IMG/VR virus record: IMGVR_UViG_3300030110_003253
Coordinates: 1-43,488 of that record
Length of the DNA stretch: 43,488 nt
Direction: 5' to 3' (one strand)
Source of the DNA: a virus
The position numbers and the translations under genes are program-made. The notes under the pieces were generated by a model. That model saw only the letters and a list, made by a program, of their open reading frames with translations. It made no database searches and had not been told where the DNA came from. Positions 21,240-43,488 of this stretch are shown here, one piece after another (position 1 is the first letter of the stretch; every line of letters starts with the position of its first letter).

Positions 21240-24221
21240 ATGTCAAGAGCACGAAGTCTAGCAAGATTAGGGAACTCTAATGCACTTTCTGTTGATAGTA
21301 GTTTCAACGTTGGTATCAATAGCACCTCTCCAACTACAAAACTGGATGTTGTTGGAGTAATAAGTGCTACTACTTTTGTTGGTGATGGAGCTTCATTAAC
21401 TGGTATTGCTAATACTGACTTCATTGTTGGTACAGCAATTACAATGACAACTGGTACTTTTACCAGTGATATAGAAGTTAATTCAATAGATATTGGTCGT
21501 GGTGCTAATAATGTTGCAACTAATACGACGGTTGGTGATGAGGCTTTAGATGCAAATACATCAGGTGGACATAATGTTGCTGTAGGTCAGGGAGCACTGA
21601 GTGCTAACACTAGCGCCAGCGCAAACACTGCTGTTGGTAGGAAATCACTTAATTCAAACACTACTGGTGAAAATAACTCAGGGTTTGGCCAGTATGCTCT
21701 CCGTAATAGCACTACTGGTGCCAACAACACAGCTACTGGAGCACAAGCTCTCTATTCCAACACTACTGGTGGTTGGAATACTGCAGTTGGTACAGAGTCG
21801 CTTTATTCTAACACTACTGGTGATTACAATATAGCAGTTGGCAGGAAAGCGCTTTATCTCAATACTACTGCTGATAATAATACTTCTATTGGTTATGAAT
21901 CCCTTAGAGAAAACACCACTGGTGCTAACAACACAGCTGCTGGTTATAATGCACTCAAGTTAAACACTACTGGTGCCAGCAACACAGCTGCAGGAAGAAA
22001 TGCCCTCCTTTCCAACACCACTGGTAATTTCAACGTAGCTACCGGTAATGATGCTCTCTATTCCAATACCACTGGTAGCAACAATACAGGAAGCGGTTAT
22101 GGCGCACTCTTTACAAACACTACCGGTGGAAAAAACGTAGCATCTGGTAAATATGCACTACGCTACAACACTTCCGGAGAGAAAAACGTAGCAAGTGGTT
22201 ATTTGGCACTCCACCAAAACACCACTGGAGATAACAATACAGCAAGTGGTAATGAATCACTTAAAGAAAACACTACTGGTAATGAAAACACAGCAGTGGG
22301 CGCAAGTGCTCTCTATTCCAGCACCACTGCCAGCTATAACGTAGCTACTGGCTACCAGACTCTTTATTCTAATACTACGGGTTATAGTAATGTAGCAAGT
22401 GGATATAAGGCTCTCTATGACAACACCACTGGCATTCAAAACACGGCTATAGGAACAGAATCTCTAGAAAACAACACCACTGCTAGTGAAAATACTGCAA
22501 TTGGAGACGCTGCCCTTCGTACGAATACTACTGGCACCAAGAACGTAGCTAGTGGATTTCGAGCTCTCTATTCAAATACCACTGCTAATGATAACACAGC
22601 TAGCGGTCATCATGCTCTTTATTCCAATACCACTGGTGCTAGTAACACAGCTAGCGGATCCGGTGCTCTTTATACCAACACCACTGGTGGATATAACACA
22701 GCTTCTGGTTATCAAGCTCTCTATTTTAATACTACAGGTAGTAGTAACACAGCTATTGGTGATAATACACTTAAGATAAACACCACCGGTTCTAATAATA
22801 CAGCTTTAGGCAGAGAAGCTCTTCTTTATAACACCACTGGTGCTAACAACGTAGCAACTGGATATCAGGCTCTCTATGATAACACCACTGGTGCTGACAA
22901 TGTTGCTGTTGGATATGAAGCTCTAGCAAACAACACAACTGGCGGAAGTAATTGTGCGATTGGGCAAAGTACTTTAAAAGCTAATACTACTGGTGCTTCT
23001 AACTCAGCGATCGGGCAGGCTGCTCTTTGGACAAATACTACTGGATCTAACAATTCATCCTGTGGGTATCGTGCTCTTTTTAGCAACACCACTGGCGATA
23101 ACAACACAGCCAGCGGTTATAAAGCTCTCTACACTAACTCAACTGGTGGTGTTAACACAGCTACTGGATATAATTCTCTCTATTCCAACACCACTGGTAA
23201 TTACAACACAGCTACTGGATACGAATCTTTAAAGAATAATACCACTGGTCAGTACAACACAGCTGGCGGATACGAAACTCTCTTTACAGTCACTACAGGA
23301 AGTTTCAACACAGCTTACGGAATACAAGCTCTTCGTTCCAACACCACTGCTAGTGACAATGCAGCTTTTGGTAGAGCTTCTCTTTATTCCAACACTACTG
23401 GTACTCAAAACACAGCTAGCGGATCCACTGCTCTTTATACCAACACCACTGGTGGATATAATACAGCAAGTGGATACCAATCTCTTTATTTAAACACCAC
23501 TGGATCTAGAAATGCAGCTTTTGGACTTAAAGCACTTTACAGTTGTACAACTGGTACAAATAACACTGCTGTTGGTGTTGATGCTCTTTACGCTGTAACA
23601 ACATGTTCAAGTCAACAAGGTAATGTTGCTGTTGGAGACCAAGCTGGCAACCTTATTACTACTGGTTTTAGAAATGTAGTTATTGGATACCTTGGTGGTC
23701 GTACTCTTACTACTGGAGATGACGGTGTATATATTGGTTACAACAATGCTGCCAGTGCTGCAGATGTAAATAGAGAATGTGTTTATGGTGATAATGGTAC
23801 AGGTAAAGGCACCAGAACATTTTTTGCTACTGCAGACAATGGTGTTTATCATGGTGGCAACACAACCACTTGGACTACAACTTCTGATCGTAGAATTAAA
23901 AAGAACATTGCTGACAACAATGAAGGACTTTCACTAATCAATCAGATTGCTGTTAAGAACTTTGAGTATAAAACTGCTGAAGAAGTTGAGACAGATGGTG
24001 AAGTTCCAGTCACTGATGCTGTGTCAAAAACAGGCACACAAATTGGTGTTATTGCTCAGGAACTGCAAAGTGTTCGCTCTAGTTGGGTGACAACTCGTGA
24101 TAATGGTACATTGGCAGTAACTGGTACAGATGAAATTATCTGGCACCTTGTAAATGCAGTGCAAGAACTCTCTGCAGAGAATACTGCACTGAAAACTAAA
24201 CTTGATAATGCTGGTCTTTGA
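21240..24221 (+). CDS. repeat-shaft tail fibre with S74 intramolecular chaperone
   Basis: 993 residues. Residues 1-105 form an N-terminal adaptor with VGINSTSPTTKLDVVG and FVGDGASLTG blocks. Residues 106-785 are 40 tandem 17-residue repeats of the form NTTGxxNTAxGxxALYx, resembling the YadA-type head repeat, and probably build a long trimeric beta-roll shaft. The C-terminus carries a peptidase S74 (endosialidase-type) chaperone beginning at TTSDRRIKKN. Ser882 and Lys887 have the S-x4-K spacing of its catalytic dyad, so about 112 residues should be released after trimerisation. It ends in a coiled coil (VQELSAENTALKTKLDN). It is followed by a sister gene with the same promoter. Confidence 0.85.
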   Translation: MSRARSLARLGNSNALSVDSSFNVGINSTSPTTKLDVVGVISATTFVGDGASLTGIANTDFIVGTAITMTTGTFTSDIEVNSIDIGRGANNVATNTTVGDEALDANTSGGHNVAVGQGALSANTSASANTAVGRKSLNSNTTGENNSGFGQYALRNSTTGANNTATGAQALYSNTTGGWNTAVGTESLYSNTTGDYNIAVGRKALYLNTTADNNTSIGYESLRENTTGANNTAAGYNALKLNTTGASNTAAGRNALLSNTTGNFNVATGNDALYSNTTGSNNTGSGYGALFTNTTGGKNVASGKYALRYNTSGEKNVASGYLALHQNTTGDNNTASGNESLKENTTGNENTAVGASALYSSTTASYNVATGYQTLYSNTTGYSNVASGYKALYDNTTGIQNTAIGTESLENNTTASENTAIGDAALRTNTTGTKNVASGFRALYSNTTANDNTASGHHALYSNTTGASNTASGSGALYTNTTGGYNTASGYQALYFNTTGSSNTAIGDNTLKINTTGSNNTALGREALLYNTTGANNVATGYQALYDNTTGADNVAVGYEALANNTTGGSNCAIGQSTLKANTTGASNSAIGQAALWTNTTGSNNSSCGYRALFSNTTGDNNTASGYKALYTNSTGGVNTATGYNSLYSNTTGNYNTATGYESLKNNTTGQYNTAGGYETLFTVTTGSFNTAYGIQALRSNTTASDNAAFGRASLYSNTTGTQNTASGSTALYTNTTGGYNTASGYQSLYLNTTGSRNAAFGLKALYSCTTGTNNTAVGVDALYAVTTCSSQQGNVAVGDQAGNLITTGFRNVVIGYLGGRTLTTGDDGVYIGYNNAASAADVNRECVYGDNGTGKGTRTFFATADNGVYHGGNTTTWTTTSDRRIKKNIADNNEGLSLINQIAVKNFEYKTAEEVETDGEVPVTDAVSKTGTQIGVIAQELQSVRSSWVTTRDNGTLAVTGTDEIIWHLVNAVQELSAENTALKTKLDNAGL
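21555..23594 (+). repeat. 40 tandem 51-bp coding repeats
   Basis: Forty in-frame units of exactly 51 bp, each encoding NTTG/NTTA-xx-NTAxG-xx-AL-xx. Units differ mostly at silent or variable positions, and runs such as AACACCACTGG recur throughout. Unit length is constant across the array, with no indels, pointing to selection on a structural repeat. Confidence 0.93.
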
Positions 24222-24250: not shown

Positions 24251-26950
24251 ATGACATCAAGAGCAATAGTCTTAGCTAATTTAGCTTCATCAAATATTCT
24301 TGAAGTTGATTCTACCACAGATCGTGTTGGTATTGGAAGTACTCAACCAACAAGTAGACTTGATGTAAGTGGAAATATTAAAGCAGTACATGGTAATTTT
24401 ACTGGTGTTGCTACTGCCACATCATTCTCTGGGACAACTGGTACTTTTACCAGTGATATAGAAGTTAATTCACTATCTATTGGTCGTGGTGCTAATAATG
24501 TTGCATCTAATACTGCAATTGGTAGTAGTGCTCTTAATGCAAATACCACTGGTTCTAACAACGTAGCAATTGGTAGTAGTGCTCTTGATGCAAATACCAC
24601 TGGTTCTAATAACGTAGCAATTGGTAGTAGTGCTCTTAATGTAAATACCACTGGTTCTAACAACGTAGCAGTTGGACAATTTGCTCTCCTTTCTAACACT
24701 ACCGCTAGCTACAACACATCAATTGGTAGAAGATCACTTTACTCAAATACCACTGGTGCTAACAACGTAGCAACTGGATATCAAGCACTCTACAACAACA
24801 CTACCGGTGAGTCCAACTCAGGAAATAGTTTTAATGCACTCTACAGCAACACAGAAGGCGATAACAACACAGCAATTGGTAGAAATTCACTCTTCTCAAA
24901 CACTACTGGTTCTAAAAACGTAGCTAGCGGTCGAGATGCTCTCTTTTCAAACACCACTGCCTCTGAAAATACAGCTACTGGATATCAAGCTCTTTATACC
25001 AACACTACTGGTGCTAATAATACAGCTTCTGGTAATAATGCACTAAAATTGAATACCACTGGTTCGCACAACACAGCTGACGGAAGTTTAGCACTCCATT
25101 CAAATACCACCGGTTCAAAAAACATAGCAATTGGTCGCCATGCCCTTTATGCAAACACTACTGCTGAAAAGAATGTAAGCGTTGGTTATCGGACACTATA
25201 CAATAACACCACTGGAGCTAACAATACAGCATGTGGTAATGAATCACTTAAAGCAAATACAACTGGAGCTGAAAATACTGCGTTTGGTGCTAGTGTTCTT
25301 TTTAGCAACACCACTGGTAATTACAACACAGCAGTGGGAAGACTTGCTCTTGAATTAAATACCACTGGTTCTAACAACACAGCAAATGGTAGGAATGCTC
25401 TTCAAGTAAACACCACTGGTGATATGAATGTAGCAAGCGGTTATGGTGCCCTTGCTTTAAACACGACCGGAAGCGAAAACACAGCAAGTGGCGTTGGTGC
25501 TCTTGGATCGAATACCACTGCCGATGACAACAGTGCAGTTGGTAGATCTGCACTGTTTTCTAACACCACTGGAACTCGCAACGTTTCTAGCGGATATCAG
25601 GCTCTCTATTCCAACACCACTGGCAATTACAATGTAGCCAATGGATCGCAAGCACTTTATACCAACACCACTGGGTCTAATAACGTTGCTATCGGTAAAG
25701 CTTCTCTTTATTCCAACACCACTGCTGCCAACAACACAGCTATTGGTGATGCGTCTCTCTATTCCAACACTACTGGTACTCAAAATACATCTACTGGGTA
25801 TCAATCTCTCTATAACAATACTACAGCTAATAACAACACAGCTAACGGATTCCAATCCCTCTATTCCAACACCACTGGCGCTGATAACACAGCATTTGGA
25901 CGAGAAAGTCTTAAGTCTAATACTACTGGTAGTAATAACACAGCTAGTGGATTCTTTGCTCTCTATTCAAACACCACTGCATCTTACAACTCAGCTTTAG
26001 GCAGAGAAGCTCTTTATACCAACACTACTGGTACTAACAACACAGCAACTGGATACCAGGCCCTGTATGCCAACACTACTGGCGATAGTAATGCCGCTTT
26101 TGGTAAAGACGGCCTTCGTTCTAATACTACAGGAACTCAAAATTCTGCTTTTGGCATTGATTCGCTTCGTACTAACACTACCGCTAGCGGTAACACAGCA
26201 GGGGGGTTTCAAGCTCTCTATGATAACACCACTGGATCTTACAATTCGGCTTTTGGATATAGAGCATTGCAGAATAACACTACTGGAGAAAAAAATACTG
26301 CAGCAGGTATTACGGCTATGAATAGTTGCACCACTGGAAGCAACAATGTTGCCGTTGGTGACAGATGTATGTACTCAATGACTACTGGCGCTCAAAACAC
26401 TGCTGTTGGCTTGAGTGGTCTTTATAATTTGACTACAGGCATTTATAATACTGCATTTGGTTCACAAAGTTTAAAAAATGTCACAACTGGTGGTGGCAAC
26501 ATTGGATTAGGTGCAATGACTGATGGGGGGTCATATTCTCCAGTATTTGACCCAACAACAGAAAGCAATCGTCTTGTACTGGGTCACACCAGCATTTCTA
26601 ATGCTTATGTCAAAGTATCTTTTACCGTAACATCAGATGAAAGAGATAAGATGAACTTTGCTCCAGTACCTTATGGTCTGGACTTCGTTAATAAATTAAA
26701 ACCAACTGCCTTCCAGTTCAAGGTAGATCGTAATACTGAAACACCAGATGGTAATGTACGTTATGGATTCAAAGCACAAGACATTCTTGCTTTAGAAGGT
26801 GACAATCCTGTTATTATAGATAGTGAAGATAGTAATCACCTTAAATATAAAGGTGAGCATCTGGTTCCTGTTCTGGTTAATGCTGTGCAGGAATTAACTA
26901 CAATGGTCAGTGATTTAAAAACTGAACTAGCAACCCTTAAAGGGGCTTAA
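24251..26950 (+). CDS. sister repeat-shaft tail fibre with S74 chaperone
   Basis: 899 residues. The N-terminal 97 residues share the TGTFTSDIEVNS and IGRGANNVA block with the fibre at 21240 but differ before it. Residues 98-743 are 38 seventeen-residue repeats, plus one decayed unit ending in a Gly-rich segment (TTGGGNIGLGAMTDGG). The C-terminal S74 chaperone starts at VTSDERDKMN, with Ser795 and Lys800 in catalytic spacing. Its remaining sequence (YGLDFVNKLKPTAFQFKVDR) is clearly different from that of 21240. A coiled-coil end (VQELTTMVSDLKTELATLKG) follows. The two chaperones should each act on their own chain. The first three repeats are almost identical, a likely recent expansion. Confidence 0.85.
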   Translation: MTSRAIVLANLASSNILEVDSTTDRVGIGSTQPTSRLDVSGNIKAVHGNFTGVATATSFSGTTGTFTSDIEVNSLSIGRGANNVASNTAIGSSALNANTTGSNNVAIGSSALDANTTGSNNVAIGSSALNVNTTGSNNVAVGQFALLSNTTASYNTSIGRRSLYSNTTGANNVATGYQALYNNTTGESNSGNSFNALYSNTEGDNNTAIGRNSLFSNTTGSKNVASGRDALFSNTTASENTATGYQALYTNTTGANNTASGNNALKLNTTGSHNTADGSLALHSNTTGSKNIAIGRHALYANTTAEKNVSVGYRTLYNNTTGANNTACGNESLKANTTGAENTAFGASVLFSNTTGNYNTAVGRLALELNTTGSNNTANGRNALQVNTTGDMNVASGYGALALNTTGSENTASGVGALGSNTTADDNSAVGRSALFSNTTGTRNVSSGYQALYSNTTGNYNVANGSQALYTNTTGSNNVAIGKASLYSNTTAANNTAIGDASLYSNTTGTQNTSTGYQSLYNNTTANNNTANGFQSLYSNTTGADNTAFGRESLKSNTTGSNNTASGFFALYSNTTASYNSALGREALYTNTTGTNNTATGYQALYANTTGDSNAAFGKDGLRSNTTGTQNSAFGIDSLRTNTTASGNTAGGFQALYDNTTGSYNSAFGYRALQNNTTGEKNTAAGITAMNSCTTGSNNVAVGDRCMYSMTTGAQNTAVGLSGLYNLTTGIYNTAFGSQSLKNVTTGGGNIGLGAMTDGGSYSPVFDPTTESNRLVLGHTSISNAYVKVSFTVTSDERDKMNFAPVPYGLDFVNKLKPTAFQFKVDRNTETPDGNVRYGFKAQDILALEGDNPVIIDSEDSNHLKYKGEHLVPVLVNAVQELTTMVSDLKTELATLKGA
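24542..26479 (+). repeat. 38 tandem 51-bp coding repeats
   Basis: Thirty-eight in-frame 51-bp units. The first three (24542-24694) are nearly identical in DNA, each with ACCACTGGTTCTAA and a GTAGCA tail, whereas later units are diverged. That gradient is what recent unit duplication at the 5' end of the array would leave. Confidence 0.92.
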
Positions 26951-33526: not shown

Positions 33527-33776
33527 AGGATATGAGTATTGGAGTGAAGACTTCAATACTAAATTTACCAGGATATGGATTAAAAATAAAACAAGATATT
33601 TTACATATTGTGGAGGTCATCCCAGTTCAGTCTGGGGATTTGTGAATAAAAAAACTGGTGCATATTATTCACCAATCAATCACAAAAAAGTAGGGAAGGT
33701 AGTAGATATTGCATTGACTTCCCCTTATTCTGCTATGGTATTAGAATTAAACCCACTAATGGCAGCATTCCAATGA
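33489..33776 (+). CDS. small protein with FV(N/D)K-TGA-Y domain
   Basis: 95 residues from the ATG at 33489; the ATG at 33498 is also possible. The frame opens earlier only through a TTG. The start lies inside the end of 33341 in another frame. Centre: SEDFNTKFTRIWIKNKTRYF, then WGFVNKKTGAYYSPINHKKV. That core matches in layout VMFVDKNTGACYKSASYKAP of the gene at 40875, so the two share a small beta-hairpin domain of unknown role. Confidence 0.62.
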   Translation: MKTMENPPHLAPEGYEYWSEDFNTKFTRIWIKNKTRYFTYCGGHPSSVWGFVNKKTGAYYSPINHKKVGKVVDIALTSPYSAMVLELNPLMAAFQ

Positions 33777-36820: not shown

Positions 36821-36848
36821 TTAGTTACCACTAAAGTGGTCCTGTAGT
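36821..36848 (+). promoter_or_regulatory. 28-bp promoter element, copy 1
   Basis: TTAGTT (36821-36826), 16-bp spacer ACCACTAAAGTGGTCC, TGTAGT (36843-36848), 23 bases before ATG 36872. In this copy the spacer contains a perfect dyad, ACCACT-AA-AGTGGT. Confidence 0.78.
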
Positions 36849-36871
36849 GTAATCACACACACTCACACACC

Positions 36872-37285
36872 ATGGCAACTAGGGGTCGTATAGGTTATGA
36901 ACTTACTGATGGTTCTATTATCTCTGCTTACCATCATTGGGATTCTTATCCTGATTGGTTGGGTAAAACACTCAAGGAGCAGTATAATACAGAGGAGAAA
37001 GTAACAGAACTGATTGATGGTGGAGACATGTCAGTCTGTTGGACTGATGATAGTTTCCGCAATTCTGATGGTAAGATTGAAAAGAAGTCAGAATTTGGTC
37101 CTCAATACTATTCTGAAAGGGGTGAAGATTGTCCTCCAAATGTATTGTCTTTGAGTGAGTATCTTGATAAAGATAACAATGAAGAGTATGCTTATGTATG
37201 GACTAAGCAGCAAGAATGGATCTGCTATGATATGCACTCCTTTGATAGGAGAAAGTCACCTGAATTAGTAGCAATTCCTTCTTAA
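36872..37285 (+). CDS. conserved-type small protein (TRGRIGYEL family pattern)
   Basis: 137 residues. The start MATRGRIGYELTDGSIISAY, then HHWDSYPDWLGKTL, is a pattern I know from small proteins spread among phages and bacteria that share TRGRIG...YHHWDGYP. Their role is unsettled. The body is acidic, with CPPNVLSLSEYL and several Tyr/Trp. It is the first gene downstream of the 28-bp element series, with a leader made almost entirely of CA repeats and no Shine-Dalgarno sequence. Confidence 0.75.
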   Translation: MATRGRIGYELTDGSIISAYHHWDSYPDWLGKTLKEQYNTEEKVTELIDGGDMSVCWTDDSFRNSDGKIEKKSEFGPQYYSERGEDCPPNVLSLSEYLDKDNNEEYAYVWTKQQEWICYDMHSFDRRKSPELVAIPS

Positions 37286-37291
37286 TTATTG

Positions 37292-37319
37292 TTAGTAACC
37301 TCTAAATTGGACCTCTAGT
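37292..37319 (+). promoter_or_regulatory. 28-bp promoter element, copy 2
   Basis: TTAGTA (37292-37297), spacer ACCTCTAAATTGGACC, TCTAGT (37314-37319). It ends 14 bases before the ATG at 37334; another ATG at 37322 sits where transcription should start. Confidence 0.75.
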
Positions 37320-37333
37320 GTATGGACAAAGCA

Positions 37334-37543
37334 ATGCCACCTCTATCACTCTCTCAGACACAGTTTGAGGTGATTATGGAGTCACTTGAGCACATCTTCA
37401 AGGTTCTTGATGGTGTGGACTATAATTGTGATTCTAGTGATCCTAAAAACTGTAAGAAAACAGCACCTTATGCTATTGGATACACTAGAGAAAGTGTAAA
37501 AAACCTCATTGAAACTGTCCAAGCAATTCACATCAACAATTAA
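37334..37543 (+). CDS. small hypothetical protein
   Basis: 69 residues from the ATG at 37334; an in-frame ATG at 37322 lies only two bases past the -10 of the element and would be upstream of the likely transcription start. Helical N-terminal part (LSQTQFEVIMESLEHIFKVL), a Cys-bearing loop (DYNCDSSDPKNCKKTAPYAI) and a helical end. The two Cys may pair or bind metal. Function unknown. Confidence 0.65.
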   Translation: MPPLSLSQTQFEVIMESLEHIFKVLDGVDYNCDSSDPKNCKKTAPYAIGYTRESVKNLIETVQAIHINN

Positions 37544-37545
37544 TC

Positions 37546-37758
37546 ATGAACAACTCTTCTACTGTGCTCAAAGAAATTCAATCACTCAAGCAAATTTGGA
37601 GGACTCAAAACTTTTCTCTTACTAAAGAACAGCAATCACGTTATGATGAACTGATGGAACTTCGCAGGGCATTTATCACATTCTGGAAGGAAGAAGGTCG
37701 TATCTGGGTCGGACCATCTAATGCTGGTAAGAAGAAAGAAGAGCAGGAGAATATCTGA
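37546..37758 (+). CDS. small conserved-type cyanophage protein (LTKEQQSRYDELMELRR)
   Basis: 70 residues. The central LTKEQQSRYDELMELRRAFI helix is a pattern I associate with short cyanophage proteins. It continues into a basic end (GPSNAGKKKEEQEN). It starts two bases after the preceding stop, so it belongs to the element-2 transcript. It could be a DNA- or protein-binding helical hairpin; no function is known. Confidence 0.7.
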   Translation: MNNSSTVLKEIQSLKQIWRTQNFSLTKEQQSRYDELMELRRAFITFWKEEGRIWVGPSNAGKKKEEQENI

Positions 37759-37759
37759 A

Positions 37760-37924
37760 ATGTATTTTACTTGTAGTGGTTATTGGAGAGATTCACGTGG
37801 AATTAAACACAATTTTGAGATTGAATCTGACAGGGCAGAGCGTAGTTTCATCAAGGAACTTGTAGAAGCAAGGTATCCTACTGAAAGTGTGCAAATTAAT
37901 CTTGTTCAGAGAAAGAAAGTATGA
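37760..37924 (+). CDS. small hypothetical protein (54 residues)
   Basis: MYFTCSGYWRDSRGIKHNFE, then SDRAERSFIKELVEARYPTE. The ATG at 37760 begins two bases after the previous stop; the frame is open upstream but would overlap. A basic, beta-then-helix layout. Its stop overlaps the ATG of a tiny membrane ORF (ATGA). Confidence 0.65.
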   Translation: MYFTCSGYWRDSRGIKHNFEIESDRAERSFIKELVEARYPTESVQINLVQRKKV

Positions 37925-38046
37925 AGATAGTGTTAGTTACACTTGTATGTGTAGGGGGATTTATGTTATATTTCTCCCTATGGAATCAAGTAATTTGTGA
38001 ACATATGCAAGACAAAATGGTATGTAAGATTATTAGTTACCTCTAA
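37921..38046 (+). CDS. tiny membrane protein (41 residues)
   Basis: MKIVLVTLVCVGGFMLYFSL at the start is a single hydrophobic span, followed by a polar Cys-bearing tail (WNQVICEHMQDKMVCKIISY). It begins by ATGA with 37760. Its last codons and stop lie inside copy 3 of the 28-bp element, so the tail sequence is partly set by the promoter. Could be a small host-membrane modifier; inference. Confidence 0.6.
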   Translation: MKIVLVTLVCVGGFMLYFSLWNQVICEHMQDKMVCKIISYL

Positions 38047-38060
38047 ACTGGACCTATATT
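38033..38060 (+). promoter_or_regulatory. 28-bp promoter element, copy 3
   Basis: TTAGTT (38033-38038), spacer ACCTCTAAACTGGACC, TATATT (38055-38060). It ends 16 bases before the helicase start at 38077 and overlaps the stop of the tiny membrane ORF. Confidence 0.78.
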
Positions 38061-38076
38061 ACAGAGACACACATTG

Positions 38077-39255
38077 ATGATCACCCTTCGTCCACACCAG
38101 CAAACTGCACTTAACACTCTGCGCACCCATTCTTTGGGTCAAGTTATTGTTCCTACTGGTGGTGGCAAGACCTTGATTCAAATTAAGGATGCAATGTGGC
38201 GTTTTGAGGTTAAGCAGCACAGGACAATCCTTGTGGTTGCTCCTAGATTGTTGCTTGCTAATCAACTCTGTGATGATTATCTTCAGCACATTGATAATGC
38301 AAATGCAATTCATGTTCACAGTGGTGACACCAAACATTTCAGAACCACTAAACCTGAGCAGATTAGACTTGCCAATGAAATGTGCAAAACTGTTGGTGTT
38401 CATAGTCTTATCTTTACCACTTATCACAGTCTGCATCGTATCGTAGAGAGTGGAATTGACATTGATACTGTGTACTTTGATGAGGCACATAACAGTGTTC
38501 AGCGTCACTTCTATGGTCCCACTGATGTACTTGCTGACAAGGCAGATCGTGCCTTCTTCTTTACTGCTACACGCAAATGTTCTGCTGTTGCACATAAACC
38601 AGGCATGAACTGGGTTGAAACTTATGGTCAGGTGATTGCTAGGGTTTCTGCACCTGAACTGGTGGAGGGTGGTTACATTTTGCCACCTAAAGTTAAGGTG
38701 ATTGAGATGGATAAGCACCCTGTAAAGTCCATCACTCCTAATATGGATGCAGAGAACATTATGGCATCTATTGATGACTTGGAACTGAAAAAGATTCTTG
38801 TTTGTGTCAAGACCACCAAGCAGTTGACGCAACTTATGCAAACAGATTTTGTATATGAGTTGCAACAAAGAGACTACAATTACCTCTACATCACTGCTAA
38901 AACTGGTGCTGTAATCAATGGCAAGAAAGTATCTAGGGAGAAATTCTTTGACACCTTGAACACTTGGGGCAAAGATCCTAGCAAGAAATTTGTTGTTCTT
39001 CACAGGTCAATCCTGTCTGAGGGTATCAATGTGAGTGAGTTGGAAGGTGTTGTGTTCATGCGCAACATGGATGCCATTGAGATGACTCAAACCATTGGTA
39101 GGGTGATTAGAATTGGGCAGAAGTCTAAGACTTATGGTATGCTTTGTGTGCCTGTTTATTCTAATGTAGGTGTTGCCACTGAGAGAAGTATTCAGAGGGT
39201 TGTTGACACTGTATTTGAAAAAGGTGAGATGCTTGATTCTATTGTGAAGAGGTAA
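38077..39255 (+). CDS. superfamily 2 DEAH-type helicase
   Basis: 392 residues from the ATG at 38077; a TTG directly before it is in frame but not needed. Walker A PTGGGKT (P26-T32), DEAH box (D135-H138), motif III TAT (T163-T165) and motif VI QTIGRVIR (Q338-R345) are all in place, with an N-terminal LRPHQQTAL Q-like motif. The layout suits a compact ATP-dependent DNA or RNA helicase related to UvsW/type-III-restriction helicases, shorter than T4 UvsW. Likely roles are recombination repair, replication-fork handling or RNA unwinding; not decidable here. Its stop overlaps the next ATG. Confidence 0.88.
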   Translation: MITLRPHQQTALNTLRTHSLGQVIVPTGGGKTLIQIKDAMWRFEVKQHRTILVVAPRLLLANQLCDDYLQHIDNANAIHVHSGDTKHFRTTKPEQIRLANEMCKTVGVHSLIFTTYHSLHRIVESGIDIDTVYFDEAHNSVQRHFYGPTDVLADKADRAFFFTATRKCSAVAHKPGMNWVETYGQVIARVSAPELVEGGYILPPKVKVIEMDKHPVKSITPNMDAENIMASIDDLELKKILVCVKTTKQLTQLMQTDFVYELQQRDYNYLYITAKTGAVINGKKVSREKFFDTLNTWGKDPSKKFVVLHRSILSEGINVSELEGVVFMRNMDAIEMTQTIGRVIRIGQKSKTYGMLCVPVYSNVGVATERSIQRVVDTVFEKGEMLDSIVKR

Positions 39256-39458
39256 TGAACTACACTAAAACACAACTAATTGATGCACTTGTGGCAGAAT
39301 ATGATTATCTCTGCCATGATGATTTTGATCCAGAAGTAGATCAAACTCCAGAAGAATACCATCAGTATTTGATTAAAATGACCATTGATGAGTTAGTGGA
39401 AGAAACTAGCACAGGTGAAGGATACACTTTAGATGAGTGGATGGAGCATTGGGGATGA
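39255..39458 (+). CDS. small acidic conserved-type protein
   Basis: 67 residues. The pattern TKTQLIDALVAEYDYLCHDD, FDPE, then TLDEWMEHWG is one I associate with short cyanophage proteins. All-helical and acidic. It is coupled to the helicase by a one-base overlap (TAATG) and to the next gene by ATGA, so it may be a helicase partner; only the coupling supports that. Confidence 0.7.
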   Translation: MNYTKTQLIDALVAEYDYLCHDDFDPEVDQTPEEYHQYLIKMTIDELVEETSTGEGYTLDEWMEHWG

Positions 39459-39709
39459 AAGGACAACCAACAAATAGTAACATCCTGGATGTTAATCCAG
39501 GACCATTATCCTTCACTATAGGTGATTGGGATGATGCACAATTATTCTATGCAGCAGTTCCTATCAATGGAAATAAACTTGCTATTGTTCATCAAGCAAA
39601 CATCATCAAGATATGCAGGAACACACAATCTGCCAGAAACTTTATAGCAAAGCACCAGAAAAAACGTAAGAAGATTGTTAGTTACCCACAAAGTGGACCC
39701 ATTGTATGA
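39455..39709 (+). CDS. small hypothetical protein
   Basis: 84 residues from the ATG at 39455 (ATGA with the previous stop; an upstream GTG at 39437 is less likely). It has a beta-rich core (GPLSFTIGDWDDAQLFYAAV, KLAIVHQANIIKICR) and a basic C-terminus (KHQKKRKKIVSY). The last 11 codons are read through copy 4 of the 28-bp element, ending PQSGPIV. Basic tail suggests nucleic-acid contact. Function unknown. Confidence 0.66.
   Translation: MKGQPTNSNILDVNPGPLSFTIGDWDDAQLFYAAVPINGNKLAIVHQANIIKICRNTQSARNFIAKHQKKRKKIVSYPQSGPIV
39678..39705 (+). promoter_or_regulatory. 28-bp promoter element, copy 4
   Basis: TTAGTT (39678-39683), spacer ACCCACAAAGTGGACC, then CATTGT in the -10 place (39700-39705). 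It lies wholly inside the coding end of 39455 and is the most diverged at the -10. Confidence 0.65.
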
Positions 39710-39720
39710 CAAGCACTAAA

Positions 39721-40611
39721 ATGACTCAGACACACATTGAACATCCTGAGGACACCATTTTGACTGGTGACCTGTCTGCCATTGAAGCACTTTACTGCAA
39801 AGAAAGCAAAGTATCCATGAAGATGGATGGTATGTCATTAGTTTGGGGCACCAATCCTGACAATGGTGAGTTCTTTGTCTGCACAAAGGCAGCATTTAAC
39901 AAGAAGAAAGACAGAAAGTGTTACAATCATGATGACCTTTACAAGCACTTTGGTCATCAAATGCAAGTGTTTGAGGTTCTATCACATTGCCTGAAGTATC
40001 TGCCTAGAACTGAGAACATCTATTGGGGTGATTGGTTGGGGTTTGGTCGCACTCACATTGTGCAACAAAATACCCTAACATATGTTTTTGCAGAGAAACC
40101 TTCACAAAAACTTATCATTGCACCTCACACTAAAGTAACTATTGCTGGTGAATTTTGTAATGCTATTTGTGAACCACTGGATGAAATCTTTGATGATACT
40201 GCTATCATCAAGTGGGTACAACCTTCAGTTGATCGTATGCCACCAACTGAGTTTGACATCACTGATTTAGATACAAGCAAGGTACAGTTTATGTCTCCTT
40301 CAGAGGCATCTGTGGCACTCCGTAACATCAATGGATTGATTAGGGAGGGTGTTGACCTTACTGACACTGTTTTACTTGATGTGTTGGGTGACATCTACCT
40401 TGTCAATCTTTACCTGATGGTGGTAGAGATGAAAGAGGAAGTTATGGACAGTTTCATCATCAATGATGCCCCAATGTCCTTCATCTATGATGACATTGAG
40501 GTTGATGGTGAGGGGTTTGTTATGTCAAATGATTATGGAACTTTCAAACTAGTTGATCGTCCTTGCTTTGCTTATGCTAACTTCAACTCAGGCAAATTTG
40601 CAAAGAATTAA
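39721..40611 (+). CDS. putative nucleotidyltransferase of the ligase superfamily (KxDG)
   Basis: 296 residues from the ATG at 39721; an in-frame ATG at 39706 abuts the promoter element and would precede the likely transcript start. Candidate ligase motifs, in order: KMDG with Lys34 (motif I, in VSMKMDGMSLVWG), an acidic aromatic region VFEVLSHCL, EGFVM with Glu264 (motif IV) and FKLVDR with Lys276 (motif V). These are the hallmarks of ATP-dependent DNA/RNA ligases and relatives, but overall similarity to known ligases is low and the spacing between I and IV is long. Role could be RNA or DNA end repair. Single gene behind copy 4. Confidence 0.6.
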   Translation: MTQTHIEHPEDTILTGDLSAIEALYCKESKVSMKMDGMSLVWGTNPDNGEFFVCTKAAFNKKKDRKCYNHDDLYKHFGHQMQVFEVLSHCLKYLPRTENIYWGDWLGFGRTHIVQQNTLTYVFAEKPSQKLIIAPHTKVTIAGEFCNAICEPLDEIFDDTAIIKWVQPSVDRMPPTEFDITDLDTSKVQFMSPSEASVALRNINGLIREGVDLTDTVLLDVLGDIYLVNLYLMVVEMKEEVMDSFIINDAPMSFIYDDIEVDGEGFVMSNDYGTFKLVDRPCFAYANFNSGKFAKN

Positions 40612-40613
40612 AG

Positions 40614-40641
40614 TTAGTTACCTTTAAAGTGGACCTATAGT
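40614..40641 (+). promoter_or_regulatory. 28-bp promoter element, copy 5
   Basis: TTAGTT (40614-40619), spacer ACCTTTAAAGTGGACC, TATAGT (40636-40641), 15 bases before ATG 40657. It begins two bases after the stop of the ligase-like gene. Confidence 0.8.
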
Positions 40642-40656
40642 ATGAGAACACAATCA

Positions 40657-40878
40657 ATGGCAAAAACAATCTTCCAACTAACACCACCTGAGCAACAAGC
40701 AAAATGGGATGACATTATGGGTCAAATGTGTCAGTTTGTCAGTGAATCAAATGCTGACATTGATATGGCATATGATTGGGTATGTGAGATGATGGAATGT
40801 GATGGATTTGTAGAGAATGAAACAGCATGGGATAGTTTCTATGATACATTCACTGAAGCATATGCTGCTGCTGAATGA
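40657..40878 (+). CDS. small acidic hypothetical protein
   Basis: 73 residues from ATG 40657; an ATG at 40642 is directly attached to the -10 and is unlikely. Helical and strongly acidic (TPPEQQAKWDDIMGQMCQFV, WVCEMMECDGFVENETAWDS). Coupled by ATGA to 40875. Function unknown. Confidence 0.68.
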   Translation: MAKTIFQLTPPEQQAKWDDIMGQMCQFVSESNADIDMAYDWVCEMMECDGFVENETAWDSFYDTFTEAYAAAE

Positions 40879-41285
40879 ACATTATTGATCAAACATTTCA
40901 ACCCTATCACACTTTTCTAATGCAAACTGCTGAACTTTCTATCACCAACCTTGGTGCTGATAAAACTCTCTTTCTGCTTGAAGCATTGCTTGAAACTGTT
41001 AATAATAAGTGGAAGGTCAATTCTATTGAATCAGGCAGGTGTGTTTATACTAATTGGGAATATGAAGTAGGAAGGAAATATATTAAAGTATGGCAATTCA
41101 TGGTTGTCAATGGTGAGAGAAACAGGGGCAGGAGTTGTGTTATGTTTGTTGATAAAAATACTGGTGCTTGCTATAAATCAGCATCATACAAAGCACCTGC
41201 TGTAGGTATCAGGTTCTGGATCAATCAATTAGCAGATAACCCAGATATTTGTGATGAGCATGGTTCTTTTCTTTACATTCGTTAA
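40875..41285 (+). CDS. small protein with FVDK-TGA-Y domain
   Basis: 136 residues. N-terminal helical part (LGADKTLFLLEALLETVNNK), then a beta-rich half: GRKYIKVWQFMVVNGERNRG, VMFVDKNTGACYKSASYKAP. The second part has the same design as the core of 33489, so this may be a longer paralogue. No catalytic motif is seen. Function unknown. Confidence 0.7.
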   Translation: MNIIDQTFQPYHTFLMQTAELSITNLGADKTLFLLEALLETVNNKWKVNSIESGRCVYTNWEYEVGRKYIKVWQFMVVNGERNRGRSCVMFVDKNTGACYKSASYKAPAVGIRFWINQLADNPDICDEHGSFLYIR

Positions 41286-41302
41286 TAAATATAACAACCC
41301 CT

Positions 41303-41563
41303 ATGAACATTCTAGTGACTGAAGACAAACAAATTGTTGAGATTCCTGATGGATCAGAATTGATTGATGATACATTTTATGTCTGGAAAACTAGGTTTGA
41401 TTTGCACTCTACCATGACAAAAGAAGGGAGGAAGATGCTTACCTCCCTAGAGAAAGATGAGGCAATTAAGATGACCAGATGGCATCTTAAATGTGAGCAG
41501 GATGGTACAATGAAAGATTACACTTATGTGATTGGTGATGCAAATGTGAGTGGAAAACTGTAG
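41303..41563 (+). CDS. small hypothetical protein
   Basis: 86 residues: a beta-hairpin start (MNILVTEDKQIVEIPDGSEL), then DDTFYVWKTRFDLHSTMTKE, a basic helical part and KDYTYVIGDANVSGKL. It follows 40875 by 17 bases and belongs to the same transcript unless the AATAAATA run before it acts as a late promoter. Function unknown. Confidence 0.66.
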   Translation: MNILVTEDKQIVEIPDGSELIDDTFYVWKTRFDLHSTMTKEGRKMLTSLEKDEAIKMTRWHLKCEQDGTMKDYTYVIGDANVSGKL

Positions 41564-41571
41564 ATAGATTG

Positions 41572-41599
41572 TTAGTTACCTCTAAAGTGGACCTATAGC
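41572..41599 (+). promoter_or_regulatory. 28-bp promoter element, copy 6
   Basis: TTAGTT (41572-41577), spacer ACCTCTAAAGTGGACC, TATAGC (41594-41599), 19 bases before ATG 41619. Confidence 0.8.
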
Positions 41600-41618
41600 A
41601 TAAGCACACTTCAAAATT

Positions 41619-41885
41619 ATGAAATTCACTATCACTGACAAAAAAGTATTGATTAACAACATGAATCACACTGTGACTGCTGTTAATGGATTAGACAGAA
41701 TTGGTATCAACACCAGACTGCATTATATCAATGAAGAACTCCTTAAGTTACGCACAAAGCAGTCTGAGTTAGTAGCAATGAGAGATGAACTTGACAGGAT
41801 TTGTGAGATGCAAGAGGCAGGAGAATCTGCTGATGATTGTGATAACTTGTTTGAGCAAATGTTTGGTTTTGATGAGGCAGCATGA
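41619..41885 (+). CDS. small coiled-coil hypothetical protein
   Basis: 88 residues. The region from about residue 35 (LHYINEELLKLRTKQSELVA, MRDELDRICEMQEAG) is a likely coiled coil, and the tail is acidic (DDCDNLFEQMFGFDEAA). It could dimerise or partner another protein. It is coupled to 41882 by ATGA. Confidence 0.7.
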   Translation: MKFTITDKKVLINNMNHTVTAVNGLDRIGINTRLHYINEELLKLRTKQSELVAMRDELDRICEMQEAGESADDCDNLFEQMFGFDEAA

Positions 41886-42049
41886 CTAAAAAACAAGTTC
41901 TTGACATTGTAGGTAAAACTGCAAACAAAATTGATCCTAACATGGACAGACTAGAGAAATTTGATGTATTTTGTAGAGTCTGTGATAGTGCATTAGAAGA
42001 CTTCAGAATCACACAAGAGCAACACAAAAGGTGGACTAACATTTTCTGA
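41882..42049 (+). CDS. small hypothetical protein (55 residues)
   Basis: MTKKQVLDIVGKTANKIDPN, then KFDVFCRVCDSALEDFRITQ. CRVC could bind metal as a half site. The ATGA overlap with 41619 and exact fit before copy 7 of the element support a real gene. Function unknown. Confidence 0.66.
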   Translation: MTKKQVLDIVGKTANKIDPNMDRLEKFDVFCRVCDSALEDFRITQEQHKRWTNIF

Positions 42050-42056
42050 TAGATTG

Positions 42057-42084
42057 TTAGTTACCTCTAAACTGGTCCTATAGT
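42057..42084 (+). promoter_or_regulatory. 28-bp promoter element, copy 7
   Basis: TTAGTT (42057-42062), spacer ACCTCTAAACTGGTCC, TATAGT (42079-42084), 15 bases before ATG 42100, with an ACCAACCA leader. Confidence 0.8.
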
Positions 42085-42099
42085 GTAAGCAACCAACCA

Positions 42100-42264
42100 A
42101 TGAAACCTTATCCCCTTGGCATTGACAATCCCATCCTAGTTAAGGGTGTATGGGGTTCACATAAGTGGGCATTGTATTGGAAGGAAGATATGCAAAAGAT
42201 CGCAACATTCTCCAATCAATTCACTGCTTATCAGGCAAGATCTTTTATCCTTGAATCATTATGA
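42100..42264 (+). CDS. small hypothetical protein (54 residues)
   Basis: MKPYPLGIDNPILVKGVWGS, KWALYWKEDMQKIATFSNQF, then an amphipathic helix (YQARSFILESL). First gene of the copy-7 unit, coupled by ATGA to 42261. Looks like a small beta-plus-helix protein; not recognised. Confidence 0.66.
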   Translation: MKPYPLGIDNPILVKGVWGSHKWALYWKEDMQKIATFSNQFTAYQARSFILESL

Positions 42265-42440
42265 CACACAAAAACCCCTACATTCAAACCCTAGTTGAGA
42301 TGGGTTATGACAAACAAGATGTTCAGGTAGCATCAACAATGTTTCAAAAGAAAACATTTCCCTGTGTAATCCATGGCAGGCAGTTTGATACTGAAGAACA
42401 GTATCATGCTGAGTTGCATGACTTTATGAATGGAATGTGA
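42261..42440 (+). CDS. small hypothetical protein (59 residues)
   Basis: MTHKNPYIQTLVEMGYDKQD, VQVASTMFQKKTFPCVIHGR, then a His-rich acidic helix (TEEQYHAELHDFMNGM). ATGA start overlap with 42100. The LVEMGYDKQDV segment recalls a UBA-like helix pair, a weak impression only. Confidence 0.63.
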   Translation: MTHKNPYIQTLVEMGYDKQDVQVASTMFQKKTFPCVIHGRQFDTEEQYHAELHDFMNGM

Positions 42441-42442
42441 TT

Positions 42443-42613
42443 ATGAAAAAACTTAACAAATTCAGAAAAGATGGTGTTCAGGATAGAGTCATTGAAGGTT
42501 ATCTGTCTAACCCAGAATTTATGACAGAATTTCTTCACAACTATCTTGACAATCTAAGTCATAAAGAATGGACTGATATGTTTCAAAATTATCTAAACAA
42601 AACACACAACTGA
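42443..42613 (+). CDS. small basic hypothetical protein (56 residues)
   Basis: MKKLNKFRKDGVQDRVIEGY, LSNPEFMTEFLHNYLDNLSH, then KEWTDMFQNYLNKTHN. Basic N-terminus and helical body. It starts two bases after the preceding stop, and its stop shares a base with the ATG of the next gene. Confidence 0.65.
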   Translation: MKKLNKFRKDGVQDRVIEGYLSNPEFMTEFLHNYLDNLSHKEWTDMFQNYLNKTHN

Positions 42614-42804
42614 TGAAAACCACCACAGCAACTTACAAAATTGATGTCACTCTAGAGGGTGGCAAAGGTGTTATTTTTGAGAAAACAATGCCAACCAAAC
42701 CAACAACACAAAAGGGCATTAAATCACAAAACAACAAACTAGAACAATGGGCAATGAATAACTTTCCAAACTGTAAAGAAATTAACATCACCCCTATTAA
42801 CTAA
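42613..42804 (+). CDS. small basic hypothetical protein (63 residues)
   Basis: 63 residues, Lys/Thr-rich beta start (MKTTTATYKIDVTLEGGKGV) and a polar second half (KPTTQKGIKSQNNKLEQWAM, NNFPNCKEINITP). Its start is coupled (TGATG) to the previous gene. Composition is consistent with a small nucleic-acid or ribosome contact protein, not provable here. Confidence 0.64.
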   Translation: MKTTTATYKIDVTLEGGKGVIFEKTMPTKPTTQKGIKSQNNKLEQWAMNNFPNCKEINITPIN

Positions 42805-42806
42805 TC

Positions 42807-42941
42807 ATGATTGAGTTTATCATTGCTACTGCTATTCTAGTTGGAAAAGCAGACATTTCTCATAATAAAGTAATGTATGAGTTTCTCAATGAGGATGGAA
42901 CAATCACTACTGTAGTTAACACTGAAATAGATGCAATTTAG
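42807..42941 (+). CDS. tiny hypothetical protein (44 residues)
   Basis: It begins with a hydrophobic stretch (MIEFIIATAILVGKADISHN) that is short for a transmembrane helix but possible, then a beta-type polar tail (NEDGTITTVVNTEIDAI). It starts two bases after the previous stop and ends just before copy 8. A peripheral membrane peptide is possible. Confidence 0.55.
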   Translation: MIEFIIATAILVGKADISHNKVMYEFLNEDGTITTVVNTEIDAI

Positions 42942-42953
42942 TTTGAATTAAAG

Positions 42954-42981
42954 TTAGTTACCTCTAAACTGGACCTATAGT
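42954..42981 (+). promoter_or_regulatory. 28-bp promoter element, copy 8
   Basis: TTAGTT (42954-42959), spacer ACCTCTAAACTGGACC, TATAGT (42976-42981). ATG 42982 follows at once; the ATG at 43000, 18 bases on, is preferred. Confidence 0.8.
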
Positions 42982-42999
42982 ATGGATACCACTCAAACA

Positions 43000-43254
43000 A
43001 TGACTTCAACCTATCAGACACAACTCACAGACCAATCCTACAATGGATGGACTAATTATGAAACCTGGAATGTTTCACTTTGGTTGCAAAATGATGAAGG
43101 TTTGTATGATCTTGCCAGAGGATGGGCAGAGCATGGATATAAGTCACTTTCACACATGTTGATTGAGATGAGTCCTGCAACTCCTGATGGTGTTAAGTGG
43201 GATGATGATTCTCTCAACATTATTGAACTTAATGAGATGCTAAGTGAGTTGTGA
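43000..43254 (+). CDS. small protein with NYETWNVxLWL domain
   Basis: 84 residues from ATG 43000. The core YNGWTNYETWNVSLWLQNDE, then GLYDLARGWAEHGYKSLSHM, is a widespread small domain in phages, plasmids and bacteria (NYETW...LW.DN...Y), thought to be an accessory or antirestriction-type protein, though its role is unproven. Acidic tail (DDDSLNIIELNEMLSEL). Single gene of the copy-8 unit. Confidence 0.72.
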   Translation: MTSTYQTQLTDQSYNGWTNYETWNVSLWLQNDEGLYDLARGWAEHGYKSLSHMLIEMSPATPDGVKWDDDSLNIIELNEMLSEL

Positions 43255-43260
43255 TTAAAG

Positions 43261-43288
43261 TTAGTTACCTCTAAAGTGGTCCTATAGT
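43261..43288 (+). promoter_or_regulatory. 28-bp promoter element, copy 9
   Basis: TTAGTT (43261-43266), spacer ACCTCTAAAGTGGTCC, TATAGT (43283-43288). Unlike the others it has a long, pyrimidine-rich leader of about 100 bases before the next start at 43390. Confidence 0.8.
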
Positions 43289-43389
43289 ATAAGGGTTCAG
43301 TCTTCTCACTCCCACTTCTCTCCTAGCATTGTTTCTGAGAGTTTGCTTCACTGACCCCCAAAACATTTTTCACACTACTAACACACATC

Positions 43390-43488
43390 ATGCGTAAGAT
43401 TGAATCACAAATGATTGAAGCAATCAATCAAGAGAAAGATTGGAAATCAGGAAATACTAAAGTCATCAATTTCTATAATGATGGTAAA
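43390..43488 (+). CDS. small conserved-type protein, cut by the window end
   Basis: 33 codons visible: MRKIESQMIEAINQEKDWKS, GNTKVINFYNDGK and open at the end. The pattern MRKIE.QM..AI....W.SGNT.V is a short domain I know from many cyanophages and some other phages, usually about 70-90 residues, function unknown. It lies about 100 bases after element copy 9. Confidence 0.72.
   Translation, partial: MRKIESQMIEAINQEKDWKSGNTKVINFYNDGK

Follow-up and report, generated by a model that had tools for sequence, protein, structure and literature searches.

The stretch of DNA analysed here (the window) is the complete 43,488-base virus record IMGVR_UViG_3300030110_003253 of IMG/VR, and the feature of interest is a 28-bp promoter-like element repeated nine times on the + strand near its right end. 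Related complete genomes measure 178-233 kb, so the record must be a fragment; it is a fragment of a T4-like cyanomyovirus (Kyanoviridae). Its nucleotide matches are to Synechococcus and Prochlorococcus phages. A megablast against known phages gave short matches only; hence, this lineage is not close to any record in the searched collection. The first 32 kb encode tail fibre, baseplate and virion proteins, followed by 2OG-Fe(II) oxygenase and ferrochelatase-like genes. From 36.8 kb onwards lies a run of small, mostly unknown genes, including those of a DEAD/ResIII helicase and a DUF6267 protein. In complete cyanomyovirus genomes, the homologous gene run is located between the tail-fibre genes and gp25. 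It is called the early module here, as the early genes of T4-like cyanophages presumably cluster there; the early timing is our assumption. The module and the nine copies are listed below, in window coordinates, with the open reading frames (ORFs) that follow them.

36821-43488, + strand: left part of the early-gene module putatively governed by the element, continuing past the window; placed by its position relative to the homologous modules in P-TIM68, SynMITS9220M01 and Syn9
36821-36848, + strand: copy 1, TTAGTTACCACTAAAGTGGTCCTGTAGT, ahead of ORF 36872-37285 (phrog_1987, unknown)
37292-37319, + strand: copy 2, TTAGTAACCTCTAAATTGGACCTCTAGT, ahead of ORF 37322/37337-37543 and small ORFs; one ATG 3 nucleotides past the element, a second in-frame ATG 18 nucleotides past it
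38033-38060, + strand: copy 3, TTAGTTACCTCTAAACTGGACCTATATT, ahead of the helicase ORF 38077-39255 (ResIII/DEAD)
39678-39705, + strand: copy 4, degenerate, TTAGTTACCCACAAAGTGGACCCATTGT, adjoining the ATG of ORF 39706-40611 (DUF6267, phrog_455)
40614-40641, + strand: copy 5, TTAGTTACCTTTAAAGTGGACCTATAGT, adjoining the ATG of ORF 40642-40878; second in-frame ATG at 40660
41572-41599, + strand: copy 6, TTAGTTACCTCTAAAGTGGACCTATAGC, ahead of ORF 41619-41885 (phrog_3146)
42057-42084, + strand: copy 7, TTAGTTACCTCTAAACTGGTCCTATAGT, ahead of ORFs 42100-42264 and 42261-42440 (phrog_649) and further small ORFs
42954-42981, + strand: copy 8, exact consensus, TTAGTTACCTCTAAACTGGACCTATAGT, adjoining the ATG of ORF 42982-43254 (DUF7249); second in-frame ATG at 43000
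43261-43288, + strand: copy 9, TTAGTTACCTCTAAAGTGGTCCTATAGT, about 100 nucleotides ahead of an ORF (ATGCGTAAGATTGAATC...) that runs off the window

The repeat is real and far beyond chance. All nine copies were recovered at the starts reported in a first-pass annotation of the window, in a constant 28-bp register. Eight of them match the consensus TTAGTTACCTCTAAANTGGACCTATAGT with at most three mismatches, for which shuffled sequences give no match at all; the degenerate copy at 39678 has five mismatches and exact spacing. A matrix built from the nine copies and scanned over both strands of the 43.5 kb recovers these copies, with scores of 34-45, and nothing else, while no site in shuffled sequence reaches 12. 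The annotation had described TTAGTT, a 16-bp spacer and TATAGT in front of a gene or gene set each time, with the spacer as conserved as the hexamers. The constant length and the location immediately ahead of genes hold for every copy. The hexamers proved less exact, TTAGTT being present in eight of the nine copies and TATAGT in four only, and the strongly conserved spacer (11 of 16 positions invariant) surpasses TATAGT (one of six) rather than equalling it.

A search through related cyanophage genomes, suggested in the same annotation, extends the element well beyond the window. Four complete genomes, P-TIM68, SynMITS9220M01, S-B05 and RB11-B, carry 12-14 copies each, tied to gene starts genome-wide. 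The copies are confined to the small-gene module between the tail fibres and gp25 and lie on the coding strand. The 13 copies of P-TIM68 span 47.1-56.1 kb and the 12 of SynMITS9220M01 span 36.3-50.0 kb; every one is on the coding strand, and whole-genome matrix scans of these two revealed no site of comparable score outside the module. The module of S-B05 and RB11-B holds yet another variant of the element, AATTACTCACCTCnAAAnGTCCaCTATAGTGTAACCAC. The exception to the confinement is formed by two copies at 156 kb in the S-B05 record. Compared with RB11-B, which has the module in one piece at 159.6-171.3 kb, this record (MK799832) has it inverted and split over 31.7-40.3 kb (minus strand) and 156.0-157.0 kb (plus strand); a separate 40,500-bp S-B05 record ends at the module break. 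MK799832 is probably mis-joined, which best explains the copies at 156 kb. In the window, copy 9 is followed by an unusually long leader of about 100 nucleotides (43289-43390, AAGGGTTCAGTCTTCTCACTC...), resembling the leader after the S-B05 element at 33528 (GTAAGGGTTCAGACTTCTCGCTC...).

Among uncultured viruses, two exact-pattern scans of IMG/VR contigs returned many stretches, at least two of them with at least 10 exact matches, and the element is present in more than 80 contigs. The other 14 cyanomyovirus records searched have chance-level matches only; among them, Syn9 and P-TIM40 lack the pattern save for one or two such matches. The site collection, restricted to sources with at least three sites, holds at least 475 non-redundant sites from at least 88 sources, and a logo was computed over 469 of these sites.

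In this logo, A-3, T1, T2, A3, A7, C8, C9, A14 and A15 hold about 2.0 bits, closely followed by T5 and A13; the search pattern fixed most core positions (one mismatch was allowed) and inflated their bits, whereas A-3, the A/T tracts and all positions past 18 lie outside the pattern and are not affected. T10, C11, T17, G18 and T28 are strong, and T25, A26, R29 and T30 moderate. Two A/T tracts, at -18 to -14 and -7 to -1, are spaced by about one helical turn. The conserved unit therefore exceeds 28 bp: its A/T tracts begin at about -18 and reach 0, and conservation continues as far as about position 36. Should transcription start near 35-37, the known geometry of UP elements would bring these tracts to the contacts of the polymerase alpha subunit. 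In several lineages, positions 6-12 of the element read CACCTCC, identical on the sense strand to the anti-Shine-Dalgarno core of 16S ribosomal RNA, probably by coincidence.

Against the sigma70 consensus, the element has a poor -35. No hexamer close to TTGACA at 16-18 bp is present, since TTAGTT and TTACTC share only the first two bases with it, and among sigma70-type matches no copy was recovered as a TTAGTT-TATAGT pair. In the window lineage, TATAGT agrees with TATAAT at five of six positions and is exact in four of the nine copies; other lineages are weaker (e.g., TAGTAGT). The register of the -10 is uncertain: TATAGT at 23-28 or TAGTRT at 25-30, a TAnnnT hexamer fitting register 25 more often than register 23. 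The first-pass statement that more sequence is conserved than sigma70 needs is borne out; the logo has a conserved -35/spacer block and a TA-rich end. Its further statement that the element is neither a MotA box nor a late promoter agrees with the scans: no MotA box (TGCTTTA-type, centred near -30) was found between 60 bp before and 40 bp after any copy, nor a T4-type late promoter TATAAATA near any of the nine.

The copies evolve as a set. Elements differ on average at 3.2 of 28 positions within a genome; across genomes, the average is 6.6 for the same gene family and 7.0 for different genes, although the element pairs behind these averages are not independent. The contrast between 3.2 and 6.6 implies concerted evolution. 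The sister phage S-SM2 has about a dozen copies of a repeat, AAAGGGGGGTCGCCTAAAGCGTCCCTATAGTGTAAGCAC, in the same module. Its downstream half (CTAAAG through TATAGT(R)T(R)AGCAC) is nearly identical to that of the carriers, but the upstream half TTACTCACC is swapped for GGGGGGTCG; the sequence upstream of the retained half reads AAAGGGGGGTCG. Judged from these sequences, the half-swap suggests a modular element. In gene content, S-SM2 also overlaps with the carriers to a far greater extent than the other comparison genomes. A simple motif search revealed other repeated elements in ACG-2014f (20 in the module), S-PM2, Syn9 and P-TIM40, and the differing repeats that occupy this position in S-SM2, ACG-2014f, Syn9 and S-PM2 terminate in TATAGT, TATACT, TATAAG and TATAAT. 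Motif discovery in P-HM2, P-SSM4 and ACG-2014e gave no clear early motif above shuffles.

A novel regulatory element reportedly controls early genes in Syn9 and P-TIM40 (Doron et al. 2016, ISME J), whose early promoters have reportedly been mapped experimentally. Like the carriers' element, those of Syn9 and P-TIM40 are repeated before the genes of the same early module, upstream of a TATAAT-like hexamer. Near-identical copies upstream of gp25, on the coding strand only, place the present element among the early-module elements of the Kyanoviridae. The sequences, however, are not the same: in P-TIM40, TTAGTGTCACA and CACTACC precede, by 21 bp, the TATAAT found downstream of the motif at early-module genes; in Syn9, GGTGGCACA and GCCCCC precede TATAAG; and both phages lack ACCTCnAAAnTG. 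The element is hence a lineage variant of the cyanomyovirus early-promoter elements, a kind reportedly already known from the Syn9 and P-TIM40 work. This sequence class, its distribution, the set-wise turnover and the overlap with start codons appear to be new. A literature search pairing fragments of the element with cyanophage returned nothing relevant; its cyanophage matches concern a freshwater Pseudanabaena phage.

T4 early and middle promoters similarly combine a host-type -10 with a phage-specific conserved sequence, and the MotA-dependent middle promoters have a conserved block near -30 as well. Unlike in T4, motA and asiA are absent from cyanomyoviruses (PMC2984593). The PeSL cassettes described in T4-type phages (Arbiol 2010; Comeau 2014, both cited in PMC4503421) are likewise promoter cassettes that recur between the small genes of variable regions, but they contain a stem-loop or terminator. 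The element has none: fold stability does not exceed that of shuffles (z-scores near zero), and in the window no + strand terminator-like site directly precedes any copy. An RNA hairpin or PeSL-type terminator was also considered for the perfect CCACTAAAGTGG palindrome of copy 1 and rejected, as the palindrome is broken in all other copies and the fold scores are flat.

Read as a whole, the element is probably the early-gene promoter of this cyanomyovirus lineage. The weak -10 (TATAGT, or TAGTRT two bases later) would be where host RNA polymerase, carrying its main sigma factor, opens the DNA; binding of the alpha subunit to the upstream A/T tracts probably assists, and transcription would start some 6-7 bases past the -10. 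Another DNA-binding factor, delivered with the virion or of host origin, may contact the -35/spacer region and provide selectivity. The poor -35, together with the highly conserved TTA-T-ACCTC-AAA-TG block, suggests such a factor, which is proposed tentatively, its existence being slightly less likely than not. The dozen or so tandem copies would fire the early genes together, and would be kept alike in each genome by recombination and/or selection through a shared factor, changing as a set between lineages.

Without the extra factor, the promoter reading reduces to a sub-case: plain sigma70 early promoters, over-conserved through recent duplication or recombination, as in PeSL-like shuffling cassettes. 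The strong homogenisation within genomes and the tandem copies in a gene-shuffling region fit this, and a review proposes an unmodified host polymerase (PMC2984593). On the other hand, over 88 sources the nine best positions of the logo stay near 2.0 bits (a value inflated by the search pattern, A-3 excepted) while positions 4, 6, 16 and 19-24 turned over, which selection explains better than duplication. The stem-loop or terminator that would define PeSL is also missing. The sub-case is considered somewhat unlikely.

Several observations weigh against the promoter reading. Position 24, inside the supposed -10, holds only 0.3 bits between lineages, and in 88 of the 469 sites no TAnnnT hexamer begins anywhere from 21 to 27. 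A comparison of gene content between the carriers and nine comparison genomes gave no candidate regulator gene: few small reading frames are common to the carriers and absent from those nine, none was linked to DNA binding, and S-SM2, with its half-swapped element, has almost everything in common with the carriers. A further point concerns the start codons. At the other sites, genes mostly begin 14-24 bases beyond the element. Of the sites with enough downstream sequence, 154 have an ATG immediately after it, and in 148 of these the ATG opens the gene frame, about one third being expected by chance. No in-frame ATG lies 12-24 bases further on in 71 of the 148. Such genes need a messenger RNA (mRNA) that starts further upstream. 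The first-pass placement of the start, 7 bases past TATAGT, is thus challenged: at 148 of the 469 sites, the adjacent in-frame ATG would be left out. Since transcripts starting at 35-37 exclude this ATG, either read-through mRNA from upstream promoters is used or the start lies further upstream. Use of read-through mRNA, we propose, would select against an out-of-frame adjacent ATG. At Syn1 60754 and ACG-2014e 59130 and 59381 (record coordinates), an ATG comes six bases after TATAAT or TATTGT; with this spacing, some early-module genes would have leaderless mRNAs.

A start upstream of or inside the element would make the conserved block mainly an mRNA leader, acting as a translational operator or other RNA signal beside the start codon. 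The adjacent in-frame ATGs, invariable in one gene family (11 of 11), and the 71 sites that offer no alternative speak for it. Such a signal is nevertheless improbable. The flat fold scores give it no support, and the upstream A/T tracts suit DNA contacts. Where a second in-frame ATG is present, it peaks at +15/+18 (47 and 18 of 148), near the usual start distance, as if a shorter mRNA were also used. Moreover, no AT-rich, -10-like hexamer common to all lineages lies upstream (the S-B05 lineage has ACAGAA).

The TATAG end behind a long conserved block also recalls T7/SP6-type promoters, and a single-subunit RNA polymerase of T7 type, encoded by the phage and initiating near TATAG(T), at 27-29, would account for the adjacent ATG. 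This possibility was rejected as extremely improbable. No PF00940 (RNA_pol) match was found in P-TIM68, SynMITS9220M01, S-B05 or RB11-B, all complete carriers, in a search that did detect its positive control, the P-SSP7 polymerase (2.7e-69); the genome behind the window is itself incomplete. Furthermore, P-TIM68 lacks TATAG, and the A/T tracts lie far upstream of the contacts of such an enzyme.

Other features of the window were noted. A homologue of the DUF6267 protein (39706-40611) on another contig has KIDG near its start, reminiscent of the KxDG motif of nucleotidyl-transferases and ligases. The adjacent large proteins at 21240-24221 and 24251-26950 match the same virion/tail-spike PHROGs, likely a tandem duplication. 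A tRNA-Leu(TAA) with its flanking sequence, at 1814-2068, has about 80% identity to a segment present in many Synechococcus phages; apart from this segment, those phages do not resemble the window.

T4-like cyanophages take over transcription in some of the most abundant photosynthesisers of the ocean without the polymerase-modifying and MotA/AsiA genes of T4: cyanomyoviruses have no homologues of alt, modA, modB, motA or asiA (PMC2984593). Their early genes may be expressed by a host polymerase left unmodified, and regulation may differ between cyanophages (PMC2984593); genes shared by P-HM2 and P-SSM2 are conserved in their timing (PMC5082946). The most far-reaching picture, which we regard as speculative and unlikely, is an early regulon per lineage: a dozen promoters, often merged into the start codon, would be rewritten together to a lineage-specific code, with a co-evolving MotA/AsiA-independent factor, virion-delivered or host, acting before phage gene expression. 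The element marks a compact, testable early regulon in the cultured phages P-TIM68, SynMITS9220M01, S-B05 and RB11-B, and it offers a sequence handle by which the early modules of uncultured genomes can be recognised. Such set-wise change of early promoters points towards either recombination or a specificity factor, both of which can be searched for directly.

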